Shown: positions 9,701 through 55,300 of the stretch, in pieces
How the letters are laid out: every line of letters starts with the position of its first letter
Position numbering within the stretch: position 1 is the first letter of the stretch
From: Priapulus caudatus
Lineage: Eukaryota > Priapulida > Priapulimorpha > Priapulimorphida > Priapulidae
Assembly: GCF_000485595.1 (NCBI RefSeq)
Contig: NW_014577375.1
Location: 228,826-292,825, forward strand
DNA length: 64,000 bases
Reading direction: 5' to 3'
Position numbers and translations under genes: made by a program
Notes under the pieces: generated by a model
Seen by the model: the letters and a program-made list of their open reading frames with translations, nothing else
Databases searched by the model: none
Told to the model about the DNA's origin: nothing

Positions 9701-12700
9701 AACGTCGCCAGCGTCGATGATCGCGCGAAGCTGCTCGAGCATTTCGGCGCGCTCGACGCGCGGCAGCTGCGGGAGATCGCCGCGCAGCTCCGCCTGGTGG
9801 CCGGCGAGGGCGACGGCGAGAGCGAGGCGGAGACGTACGCGAAGGAGCTGCTGCTCGAGTTGCTGGTAGGTGGCGCTGTGCAGGGGCGAGGGCGCAGGGG
9901 GAGAGGGGGCGCCGCCGGGCGAGATGTATGCGAAGGAGCTGCTGGTAGGTGGCGCTGTACAGGGGCGAGGGCGAGACGTGTGCGAAGGAGCTGCTGGTAG
10001 GTGGCGCTGTGCAGGGGCGAGGGCGAGACGTGTGCGAAGGAGCTGCTGGTAGGTGGCGCTGTGCAGGGGCGAGGGTGCAGGGGGAGAGGGCGCCGCCGGG
10101 CGAGACGTATGCGATAGAGCTGCTGGTAGGTGGCGCTGTGCAGGGCGGAGGGCGAGGGCAGGGGGGAGGAGTGGTGGTGCCAAGGCATTGCGACGTCTGA
10201 TGGGTTAGCGTGCTGTACCTGTTTACATACACGCATGTGTCTACGAGTATGATAGTTTACAGGTGTCTACGGGTATGGTTGTTTACAGGTGTCTATGAGT
10301 ATGGTTGTTTACAGGTGTCTATGAGTATGGTTGTTTACAGGTGTCTAGGAGTATGGTTGTTTACAGGTGTCTATGAGTATGGTTGTTTACAGGTGTCTAG
10401 GGTTTTGACAGGTGTGGGTGTTTGTAGGTGTCTACAGGTGTGGCTGTATACAGGTGTTAACAGGTGTGGTTGTTTGTAGGTGTCTAGGCATGAGAGACGG
10501 CCCTCCCAGCTAGAGGCTCTCAATGAGATGCCCCTCTACCCAACAGAAGCAATCTTGTGGGATGAAAACATAGTTCCCACGGAGTACTTTTCCGGAGAGG
10601 GTAGGAATAATTTCTCTTGGTATTATGTTCTGTCGTGTGTGCATTGGGGCATGGTACGAAACAGCTAGGTAATATCAAAAATAGATTGTCTGGTGACTCA
10701 TGCAACTGTAGTTTTCCAGATGATCAATTTTTGATATTACCTAGGTTACCAAGTCATGGGCAGTAGTTCCCAAACCGGCATTTGCCTAATGTATAAATGT
10801 CTAACAATACTTATTCTACAATGTGACAATAACAGTAGATCCAGCTTGCCATTGAGATGCCAAACCTGTCGTATGCCTCATTGCTTGGAAGTTGTTGTGA
10901 ATGTTGACAGTTTTCAGTTTGTAATATGGCATTTAAGCAATGAAACATATTATTCTGTGATTTGACTCTGTAAAGACATGCGTATAACGTATGTAAACAA
11001 AAATATAGAAAACTGTCGTGTGAACACATAGTTTTAAAGATCAACAGTTTGAGGTTGGGACATGGCCACAAGAATGTATCTTTTTGACAGTGAATTTCGG
11101 TAGATGGGAATTTTCGAAATTGGCCCCATTCTCATTAGTTAGGTGGTATATTATTAGTGTTTTTTGTTTTTAGTAATGGTGATGTATTTTTGGTAATATC
11201 CATTTCCCTCTCGTTTCGTAGGGTGCCTTGCATTGCCTAAACTCAACCTGCAATTCCTGACATTGCATGACTATTTGCTGAGGAATTTCAACCTGTTCCG
11301 ATTGGAAACCACCTGTAAGTACAAACTTATATGTTGTTCCGGTGATTGGTGACTCTTGATGACTCTATAGCGCTTCATGTGGGAATATCTTTGCGTGATG
11401 TAAATTGGAATGGATAGCTATTACAGATCATATTAGCATTAATTTTCAAACAGACAAGAAGGCAAACAAAGATCTCACTTCCTTGCTATAAGCTTTTAAT
11501 CAATCAACCCCAGCTAGAGTAAAGCTTCCAGGAATGCACAAGCAATCAGACCATATAAGTCATCATAAAGAAGCTGTGAAGCAACAAAATATGCAAGCAC
11601 AAGAACTGGAAATCATTCAATAAAAAGTTATTAAGATTTCTACAGATTTCCATAGATTCTTGAAATGTAAGCCAATAGACGTCAGTAGTATTTTGTAGTC
11701 TAACACCTTTTCCGTTACTGACATATCATCACACTGCGTCGTGGTTTTCCGTGATTGCGGCGTACGGATTTTACGTATTATACGTTAATATATATATGTA
11801 ATTAGGTTCAGTAATTTGTTGTAATTATGTATTCTAACATTAATTATTACATTACATAAAATGATATTAGTTATTTAATGATTTAATTAGATGAAATAGA
11901 CTTAATATATTTTACAGACTAAAATAGATGGACTCTTGACTGAACACAATAAAGACAATAAAAGCTGAGATCAAAACCGGCAAAGCTAGCTGAAACTAAT
12001 GCGCGTTTTATATTAATATAACACTAAGATCGTACTGAATAATCAGAAGCAAAATTTTGTTTGCATAACCAATTGACAGATAGCAACATTAAGTATTGTT
12101 CCATAAATCATCGTTGAAAAGGAATTCCAGGTCACGAGCAACCACGTATCTCAACTCTTAGCCTAAACCAACTGATGTCATCTCGTTAAAAAAATCAACA
12201 AAACATCTTGTGCCTAAAACTTGAGTTTTGATAATTTTGATAATTTTGTTTTGATAAGATCCCAAATGTAGAACATGATGCACAATTCGAACAAGATACG
12301 GGTGCTCTTTAGCCGACTTTGTCTTCAGAGAAACATGATACAGTTACAACTCGACTGATCTTGGTTCTGCTGCACCGTGCTCCTTGGACAGCGCTCTGCC
12401 GTGAGTCCTTAAATACTGAACCAACTCTCGCGAGGTGATGAGTCTAAGACTAGAGGGCACAGCGCGAACGTGTGGGGACTTTGGGTCGAGACGCTTTTGG
12501 TGTGCAACATGACCGGTGTTCAAGTAGTGGATCATGGAAGGCGAAGCCATGCGATAGAAATTCGGTGTCGGCAATTGCTTCTGTGCTTCTATTGAATCAT
12601 CGCCTACCAGACCTGCATCAGCACTGTTTAGGTAATGGAGCATATCAGGGGAAGACATCATTTTATAGAGGGCAGATCTCTTTTGAGCTAGAGTAGAATC

Positions 12701-52300: not shown

Positions 52301-55300
52301 TCGATTAGTTATTGATTCAAATTAGGTATCTTAAAATTAATTTGAGATTATTATGTTAAATCATTTATTAAATAATGATAATAACGATTTTTTGTAATTG
52401 AATTTAAATTGTTTTTGATTATTCATTGATTAAAATTATTAAGTTATTTATTGATTTCAATTAAAAATATTATGGCTGGAAAATACAGTTAATTATCTTG
52501 CAGATTAATCGAGGAAAGTACAGGTAATCTACGTTAAATTAATCAAGAAAAGTACAAGTAATCTATGGCGAAAAAATTCTGAAAATTTCAGGTAATCTAC
52601 GGTAGATTAAAGCGATCATTGCGAGTTTTTTTCAGCGTTTTTCAGTGTTTATTCTCACTCTCATGATGCCTATCTTTGTTGCTTGAGTAACAGTAATTGT
52701 TTGAAATAACAATAAAATGTCTTAGAACCTCATGCAAAGACAAAATCATGCACGATTACAATTTTGCGTTCTCTTGTCGATTTTCGCTGTCATGTCTCGT
52801 GATACCGCGAGACGTCAACAAGCGTGCAGTAATGCAAAAATCGCACCGGAGATATTTTTGGTCAGATGTAAACACAGAGGTCCATAGTATTAGTAGCGTA
52901 ACACAAACAGGAGTGTACGGTAAGTTGTACCCTCATAAATATTAGTCTTCAAAAGTCCTAGGGACTATAAGTATAACGAAGACGGAGAGAGAAGTGGATC
53001 AAATCGATGTATCAACACTGCGGATTATCACACACAAATAGATGCCCCTTTGTTTTAATTATGTTCGCTTGTTTGAGACGCCATTTGTGATTTTTGAAAG
53101 TCGTGACACGAAAAAATTTATTGCTGGTATGATGTGGTCAAATAAATTTTTCTATGCTATAACTGCATAAAATCTTGGTGTTTTGAATGTTGGTGTAATC
53201 AGTGATATTTTCGCTGTCAGGTGAGACTATATTCAGCTATATTTAGTTTTTTTTGAGCAAAATTCTCGCAATACTCGTTTTAACAGCGAAAAGTACGAGC
53301 AATCCCACAGTGAATTAATCCTGAAACTTACACGTAATCTATGGTAGATTAACAACGAAAAGTACGAGCAATCCAATGGTGAATTAATCCTGAAAATTAC
53401 AGGTCATCCACGGTAGAGTAACCGTGAACCGGCAGAGTAAACCAGTGCCACACTCACCTGCATTGGGTTCTTCATGTACTGAGTTGCGAGCCGTCGCACG
53501 TTCTCTGGCCAGGTGGCGCTAGTCATGACCGTCTGCCGGTCAGGTCGCACGTCGATCATCACCTTGAAATACGCTCATCATATTTCACGACCGCCGTAAA
53601 AGTCTGTTTAATTTATGTAATTAATGGTGTTATTAAGTAATGTTAAGTAATGCTATTTAATTTATGGCGGCAAGCATTAGTTTACGCAACTTCGTGCGGC
53701 TCAATGAATTTACTTTGCGACAACTGGAAGCATCGCTGAAACTGTCGGGTTGAATGAACATTCGTCGGAAGATAAATTTTATGATAATAATAGTATACAC
53801 ATAATACAACTTAATAATATAATATTATAATAATATAAATTTCAGAGTCACCTTCCATATCGAGTAAATATGAATCTCATAATAATAATATATAATAATA
53901 GTATACATATACAATACAGTGATCTTATATAATGTCTCCGATCGTCACCTTCCGTATCTAGTAAATATGAATCTTATAATAATAATTATACAAATAACAC
54001 GATATAGTGATATTATGTCTCCGATCGTCACCTTGCGTATCTGCGGCTCGAAGCCCATGTCCAGCATGCGGTCAGCCTCGTCCATTACGAGGTACGAGAC
54101 GCTCTTCACGTCGATCAGATCGTTCATGATCAGGTCGAGCAGGCGTCCCGGCGTCGCCACGACGATCTCCACGCCGCGCTCGACGGCCGCGATCTGGTCG
54201 CGGCGGCTGCCGCCGCCGTACACGCACAAGCAGCGCATGCCGCGGTAGCGGATCTTCCGCGCCTCCGCCTCGATCTGCTGCGCGAGTTCGCGCGTCGGCG
54301 ACAGCACGAGCATCGTCGGGCCGGCGCGCTCGTTCCGCGGTGTCGTCTGACTCTCTATGTGCACGAGGCCTGGAAGGAGGAACGCCAGCGTCTTCCCGGT
54401 GCCCGTCTGCGCGATCCCGATCAAATCGAGGCCCTGGAGGAGAATCGGCCACGCCTGCGCCTGGATCGGGCTCGGACGATCGAACCGCTGCGCGAGAACT
54501 TGTTCGAGGATGTCGCCGTGGTGTTGGAACGCCTGCTCGAACGTCGAGACCGGGTTCGGGATCGGGCGCCGCTCGGTCTCGTGTAGGTCCGCGACGATGA
54601 TGTTGTTGCTCGCGCGGCGGAACTCGGCGACGTCCGCCGGCCGCATGTTCGCGACGTCGTTGTCCTCGACGTAGAAGTTCTTCGTCACCGTTCCGTAGTT
54701 CACGTACTTCTCCGCTTGCATGCGCGCACTGTCGGCGTGCAGCTGGCTCCAGTTGATCGTTCGCGGCGCGTCCGGGTCGCGATCGGCCGCGCTCGCCGCG
54801 TAGTCGATATACGACTTCGACTTTCCCTCGTTGGTGAAGTCGCGGATCATCTTCTTCGCCTTCTTGATGCCGTCAGCGCTACCTACTAGGTCGACGGGTG
54901 TCGACCACTCGTCCTCGTCGTCGCCGCGCACCTTGACGCGCACGCCGCACACGTCCTGGATCTCTCGGATCTTGCAGCCGGCGCGTCCGATCACCTTGCC
55001 GACGTCCTTGTTGCCGACGTCGACCGTCTCCCTCTCGTCACCGCCGCCGCCGTCGTTCCAGCCCCTGGCGTTGTTTCGGCCGCCAGCGTTGTTCTGGCCG
55101 CCAGCGTCGTTCCGGCCGCCGGCGTTGTTCTCGTAGCTGCGCGAGTTGTTTGACTGTTCGCTCAGGAGGTCTTCGATCGAGGATCTCGCGAGATCCGTCG
55201 CCTCGGAGCTCCCGGTGAGTTCGACGGGCGTTTCGTCGCCGTCCGAGCGATCCTTACATATCTGTATTCGCGCGCCGGAACTATCCTCGAGTTCTCGGAT

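Follow-up and report, generated by a model that had tools for sequence, protein, structure and literature searches.

Copies of splice junctions within introns of AQR and a DDX43-type gene in the priapulid Priapulus caudatus

How does an intron come to carry, several times over, the edge of the exon beside it, and do such copies arise because duplication is drawn to splice junctions or because it falls blindly along the gene? The question is raised by a stretch of 64,000 nucleotides from Priapulus caudatus (the window, C315:228826-292825 of a 385-Mb, 2952-contig assembly), which contains the gene AQR, whose identity fits a solved structure (aquarius chain 5mqf_U, 1983 bits), and, on the opposite strand, a helicase gene of the DDX43/53 type, here called DDX43. 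Repeat units that include the exon-intron boundary were found at eight junctions of the window, and at three outside it. The best explanation, and one in which we place considerable confidence, is tandem duplication that is blind to splice sites, producing minisatellites of the type known in lancelets as mirages.

Exon edges copied into the introns of two neighbouring genes

Arrays were listed with Tandem Repeats Finder (TRF), and each junction was scanned by seeking the bases from both sides of the splice site again at a distance of at most 2.5 kb in the same intron, with a score of 14 as the threshold and 20 shuffles of the junction's own intron for comparison. Junctions are labelled D (donor) or A (acceptor) with the number of the intron, so that D9 is the donor of intron 9. 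Six of the 62 AQR junctions reached at least 14 (D9, D21, D23, D24, A9 and A17), each above 20 of 20 shuffles, and two of the eight DDX43 junctions were counted (D2 and D4), which brings the window to 8/70. An original prediction, made from the letters of the window, had named six sites with junction-spanning copies, and every one of them surpassed all the shuffles of its own intron, the score and the shuffle maximum being 46.5 and 10.0 at D9, 38.0 and 6.5 at D24, 28.5 and 13.5 at D21, 26.5 and 11.0 at A9, 21.5 and 10.0 at D23, and 28.0 and 7.0 at DDX43 D2. AQR A17 (16.5, maximum 7.0) and DDX43 D4 (23.5, maximum 9.0) are additional members, absent from that prediction. AQR D22 (10.5, maximum 6.5) is weak, DDX43 A2 scored 10.0 (maximum 9.0), and DDX43 A3, which owed its 16.0 to intron sequence alone, was dropped before counting.

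Intron 9 of AQR has arrays at both of its ends. On the donor side, four copies of GCTGCTG joined across the boundary to GTAGGTGGCGCTGT place a GT at 9945, 9997, 10049 and 10126, all four with a donor score of 9.6, equal to that of the true site; a fifth match in the list, at 10476, runs into the acceptor array and was left out of the count. On the acceptor side, seven copies upstream of the true acceptor at 10479 end at 10262, 10288, 10314, 10340, 10366, 10392 and 10427. Array sequence occupies 534 of the 614 bases of this intron, and thus intron growth is directly visible in it; duplication had been proposed as a route of intron growth or gain, and it is the growth that can be seen. When the other splice site is kept unchanged, all seven inner acceptors and all four inner donors lead to a stop codon.

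At the remaining sites the copies have decayed to different degrees. The intron 21 array has a GT at 26253, and CT in its place at 26286, 26319 and 26352, so that of the four copies lying clear of the error-rich block described below three have lost it; the best-scoring alignment there is off register, and the in-register copy at 26253 repeats 13 exon and 7 intron bases unbroken. In intron 23, where a regular array had been announced, the donor-edge copies are real but the regular array is not: the copies are scattered, with GT at 35644 and 36359 and CT at 36511, so that one of three has lost the GT. The 92-bp array of intron 24 does begin at the end of the exon, as proposed, but its overlap with the exon is just the few bases given in Table 1; three of its four copies have GT (36900, 37086 and 37177) and one has TT (36992). 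In DDX43, both copies of D2 retain GT, at spacings of 83 and 97, as do all four at AQR D9, and the single copy of D4, 123 bp into the intron, has GA in place of GT.

Table 1. Features of the window, in window coordinates
Feature	Position	Strand	Remarks
AQR	3670-42117	+	32-exon model; intron numbers as in the original prediction
DDX43/53-type helicase	within window	-	exon best match DDX53, 3iuy_A, 227 bits
AQR exon 9	9536..9865	+	donor GT at 9866
Intron 9 donor array	9866..10156	+	52/78-bp spacing
Intron 9 acceptor array	10237..10479	+	26-bp units
AQR exon 10	10480..10600	+	begins GTGTCTAGGCATGAGAGACGG; encodes VSRHERR as in human aquarius
A17 copy	24001..24029	+	309 bp upstream; true acceptor ends 24325
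Intron 21 donor array	26227..26384	+	33-bp units with CTACCTGTACCAG of exon 21
Indel-rich duplicate of 20703-26384	26386..32172	+	apparent assembly redundancy, no extra exons
Long 33-bp array	31990..33072	+	apparently the 26227 array again; copies numerous, mostly error-rich sequence
AQR D22 weak copy	33586..33700	+	copy at 33683, score 10.5; doubtful
AQR intron 23	34592..36530	+	three scattered exon 23 donor-edge copies
Intron 24 donor array	36800..37230	+	92-bp units from last 8 exon 24 bases, 7 matching
DDX43 intron 4 donor copy	51637..51806	-	33 exon-end bases (28/33 matching) at 51650
DDX43 intron 2 donor copies	53840..54042	-	true donor 54031; copies 53948, 53851

Further genes and the quality of the assembly

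Junction-spanning repeats are not confined to AQR and DDX43. In the next gene on C315, a SHIP-like gene whose exons were matched by tblastn with a fragment of human INPP5D, one of 18 junctions scanned has its donor edge copied 213 bp into the intron. A sample chosen independently of repeats was taken from Pfam searches for myosin-head and kinesin loci (seven myosin and three kinesin loci, among the 88 and 82 exon matches listed), and it gave 2/100 junctions. Both cases fall among the 70 junctions of the myosins: at a donor on contig C198, a stretch of 66 exon bases (62 matching) recurs 197 bp downstream together with the 18 intron bases after it, and at an acceptor on contig C477 two 84-bp units stand in a clean stretch (the two assembled copies of the region lie in L029, 3201-4608 and 9632-9958). 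The three compact kinesin loci had no spanning copy at any of their 30 junctions, compactness itself lowering the chance of arrays. No shuffle trial in six myosin loci reached 14 (0/285).

These rates are nominal, both for the 18 and for the 100 junctions, which were picked automatically beside tblastn matches to human proteins: some of the sites score poorly, and one SHIP exon pair yielded no junction. A myosin donor at L028 with a score of 30.0 lies in an ATT microsatellite and was dropped before counting, a duplicated exon tail at L031 was excluded from the junction list, and a codon-model exon finder applied to the C315 flank, exact for 8 of 35 known exons, was kept out of the counts.

The geometry, held by the original prediction to be the same everywhere with differing sequences and unit sizes, is indeed so in the window, and it recurs in the SHIP-like gene and in the C198 and C477 myosins. 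The copies are ordered head to tail at D9, A9, D21, D24, DDX43 D2 and C477; no such order was found at D23, A17, DDX43 D4, C198 or the SHIP-like gene, which are spaced duplications of the same geometry.

Since long reads of low accuracy can be stitched together wrongly, it has to be considered whether the arrays are products of the assembly. On self-comparison, 26386-32172 repeats 20703-26384 with 82-83% identity and about 11% gaps, and 43673-51542, inside DDX43 intron 4, is an indel-rich repeat of much of 53941-59393, a region that covers part of DDX43 and the sequence upstream of it; this repeat is probably redundant, a haplotig or a read left unpolished. AQR exons 15-16 with their surroundings appear in three copies (14947-16077, 22228-23347 and 27891-29148), the first pair 96% identical and the third about 77%, which we take for assembly redundancy as well. 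Even the better copy, 20703-26384, has frame errors in exons 14-16, and these exons, interrupted by stops in every joining of copies tried, were omitted from protein queries; no second copy of AQR turned up in a DNA search whose query ran from its exon 9 to its intron 10. In the C477 myosin, as in AQR intron 21, an array and a redundant assembly occur together: in a second, indel-rich copy of the same exon region the unit is matched 15 times by BLAST, where TRF counts 15.7 copies of 89 bp, and at both loci the second assembled array is longer, but indel-rich. Moreover, breakpoints of the redundant blocks lie at arrays, and a lancelet mirage is described as aberrantly assembled in a draft genome (PMC3087553). 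Redundancy is therefore accepted as the likely reading of 26386-32172, 43673-51542 and C477, and because 26386-32172 would be redundant, the array at 31990-33072 would be that of 26227-26384, with no extra event and with an unreliable copy number. However, none of the eight counted junctions depends on the indel-rich copies, and the copies within the arrays have diverged and decayed differently, unlike stutter, a divergence on which assembly artefact was rejected for the counted arrays; only copy number is affected, in the long intron 21 block and in the 15-match stretch of C477. That stitched reads created the arrays is thus very unlikely.

Placement of the repeats and fate of the copied sites

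From the recurrence of the pattern a genome-wide process had been suggested. Its occurrence in further genes and contigs was borne out, but a process specific to junctions was not, for the outcome named in the original prediction as its refutation was obtained: the repeats at junctions were no commoner than those elsewhere in introns. In AQR, 94 and 95 of 837 interior intron positions, counted one-sidedly, lie in repeats (11.2% and 11.4%), and in six myosin loci 143 and 139 of 1483 (9.6% and 9.4%); against these 9-11%, spanning copies were found at 11% of the junctions in the window, at 1/18 in the SHIP-like gene and at 2% in the loci chosen by family. As the junction rates are not above the interior rates, junctions do not seem to be favoured, and a preference of the repeats for splice junctions is not supported. 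Repeats are as common inside introns as at junctions, or commoner, which speaks for blind duplication.

Blind duplication would work as follows. Short-range tandem duplications, by replication slippage, unequal exchange or repair, would fall anywhere in a gene, and those within exons or over whole exons would mostly be purged by selection. A duplication over one exon edge, by contrast, would put the exon tail, the splice site and the head of the intron into the intron, and such a duplication would be tolerated because the original site, now the outermost, keeps its place next to the exon; if that site is the one used, the mRNA may be unaltered and the duplication would be nearly neutral. Further slippage may then enlarge the array within the intron, where the inner copies would drift and some would lose their GT.

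Several observations weigh against this account. When the arrays of the window are placed at random, 7 of 18 span junctions where 1.48 would be expected (P about 2e-4), although these 18 were hand-listed post hoc, with some unit lengths set by hand and A17 omitted. Repeat density is also uneven along C315, with 2% of positions in repeats in one upstream flank (9 and 7 of 451) and 13% downstream (87 and 90 of 693). Furthermore, six of the seven A9 copies outscore the true acceptor inferred from the protein (9.8-10.8 against 9.1), and splicing to the upstream acceptor of the clean C477 stretch would give an open in-frame extension of 28 residues, so that it cannot be taken for granted that the outermost site is used; at C477 the open and in-frame pair means that the choice of site matters less.

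That spanning arrays in AQR and DDX43 exceed the random expectation would favour a targeted process, in which AGGT-like exon edges act as hotspots of slippage or repair and junction duplication actively lengthens introns, or creates them, in this genome. A further point in its favour is found at the starts of introns: in DDX43 intron 2 (53562-54031) and AQR intron 1 (3736-6092), 9 of the first 12 bases agree with the start of the downstream exon, a trace that birth by tandem duplication would leave and a level reached by 2 of 34 introns and by 1 of 1122 mismatched intron-exon pairs. The reverse comparison, of the intron end with the end of the upstream exon, gave no signal in the same 34 introns (mean 3.9 for own pairs, 4.3 across pairs). 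The two start matches are a marginal hint, and it is possible that they are relics of the birth of these introns. Nevertheless, the window array excess is given less weight because the window was picked for its striking pattern. In genes picked blind to repeats, the two spanning junctions among 100 are consistent with random placement: 0.84 spanning would be expected among 23 TRF rows, and what was observed is one TRF locus (C477, in two assembled copies) together with the spaced duplication of C198. Targeted duplication is not supported by these loci or by the coverage comparison, which has no enrichment, the contrary array test being retained on record; we consider it unlikely.

A selective origin might also be thought of, in which the tandem splice sites were kept because they serve alternative splicing, given that inner sites can equal true ones in strength, as at D9 and A9, and that the 84-bp acceptor pair of C477 is open and in frame. 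However, in AQR intron 9 each inner site leads to a stop, and several copies elsewhere have no GT, and we consider this origin very unlikely.

Some further features of the sequence may be recorded. Inside AQR intron 11, the minus strand of 12347-16860 may be a nested gene for a secreted-peptide precursor, with an open stretch at about 16848-16732 on that strand resembling a signal peptide, and a 102-bp coding array at 12609-14091 whose 34-residue units are flanked by KR, as in a multi-copy neuropeptide precursor. The segments 2682-2997, 50382-50633 and 57647-57936 are related (73-76% identity), contain telomere-like CCCTAA runs and are perhaps a dispersed element; 2213-2681 is a large inverted repeat, whose 469 bases are 87% identical to their reverse complement. 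The mitochondrial contig C2952 (14,919 bp), reached by a COX1 search, its genes named from their translations and rrnL from Rfam, has rrnL and nad1 on one strand, cob and nad6 on the other, and onward, on the first strand, nad4L, nad4, nad5, nad2, cox1, cox2, atp6, cox3 and nad3. We take this order to be the arthropod ground pattern apart from the inversion of one large block, which is the arrangement of Priapulus caudatus and not that of a lancelet; a lancelet origin, which the literature had led us to suspect, was rejected on it. The mitochondrial genome of the species is listed as NC_008557, and priapulids are placed close to the ecdysozoan ground pattern (PMC5856267).

Relation to known systems and meaning for intron growth

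By its sequence, the geometry appears to be that of the lancelet mirages, a kind already described. Mirages are reported from Branchiostoma Adh3, the globins BflGb6 and BflGb9, TnC and PGBD5, with units of 10-72 bp in Adh3 and 150-160 bp in the globins (PMC3087553, PMC3902484), and lancelet RT-PCR suggests that they leave regular splicing undisturbed (PMC3087553). Both systems have boundary-spanning tandem units at donors and acceptors, lengths peculiar to each gene, many but not all copies keeping AG or GT, an aberrant assembly and a proposed link to intron gain. They differ in that the present animal has a mitochondrial gene order unlike that of a lancelet, and in that several junctions of one gene are involved here, including both ends of one intron. 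A copy number that varies between haplotypes is a further mark of mirages.

A similar expansion of minisatellites at boundaries, changing intron structure, is described for internal tandem repeats in human segmental duplications (PMC2812944); the genes concerned there are primate ones of recent duplication, in which the repeats can form novel introns with transcript support, and the present genes are old and conserved. The model of Rogers (cited in PMC3087553), in which an intron is gained when a segment with AGGT is duplicated in tandem, and the reported potato RdRp case of such a gain (PMC4974935) are the closest proposals for gain; the priapulid introns share with the Rogers model the tandem duplication and the edges resembling splice sites, but here it is existing introns that grow. 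A literature search on Priapulus caudatus returned no report of such repeats in priapulids, which is weak evidence of absence, as many of the papers returned did not name the species and subscription journals were mostly not covered. In the human gene IFI-6-16, a minisatellite at an exon edge has units that serve as multiple splice donors, in use; this concerns one gene.

In summary, a distant animal now joins lancelets and recently duplicated human genes, the cases described in the literature seen, with junction-spanning repeats at a few per cent of junctions. The negative part is equally useful, in that a striking pattern can be explained by tandem duplication blind to splice sites, and these donors and acceptors, which occur naturally in tandem and are equally strong, are material for studying how the spliceosome chooses its sites. 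It is conceivable, and to us a little short of probable, that junction duplication in priapulids would be a steady, genome-wide lengthening of introns, independent of the lancelet mirages and touching a few per cent of junctions, that would occasionally give birth to an intron, for which the edge match of DDX43 intron 2 is a hint. In any case, the priapulid offers another lineage in which intron growth, and new introns seeded by repeats, may be put to the test.

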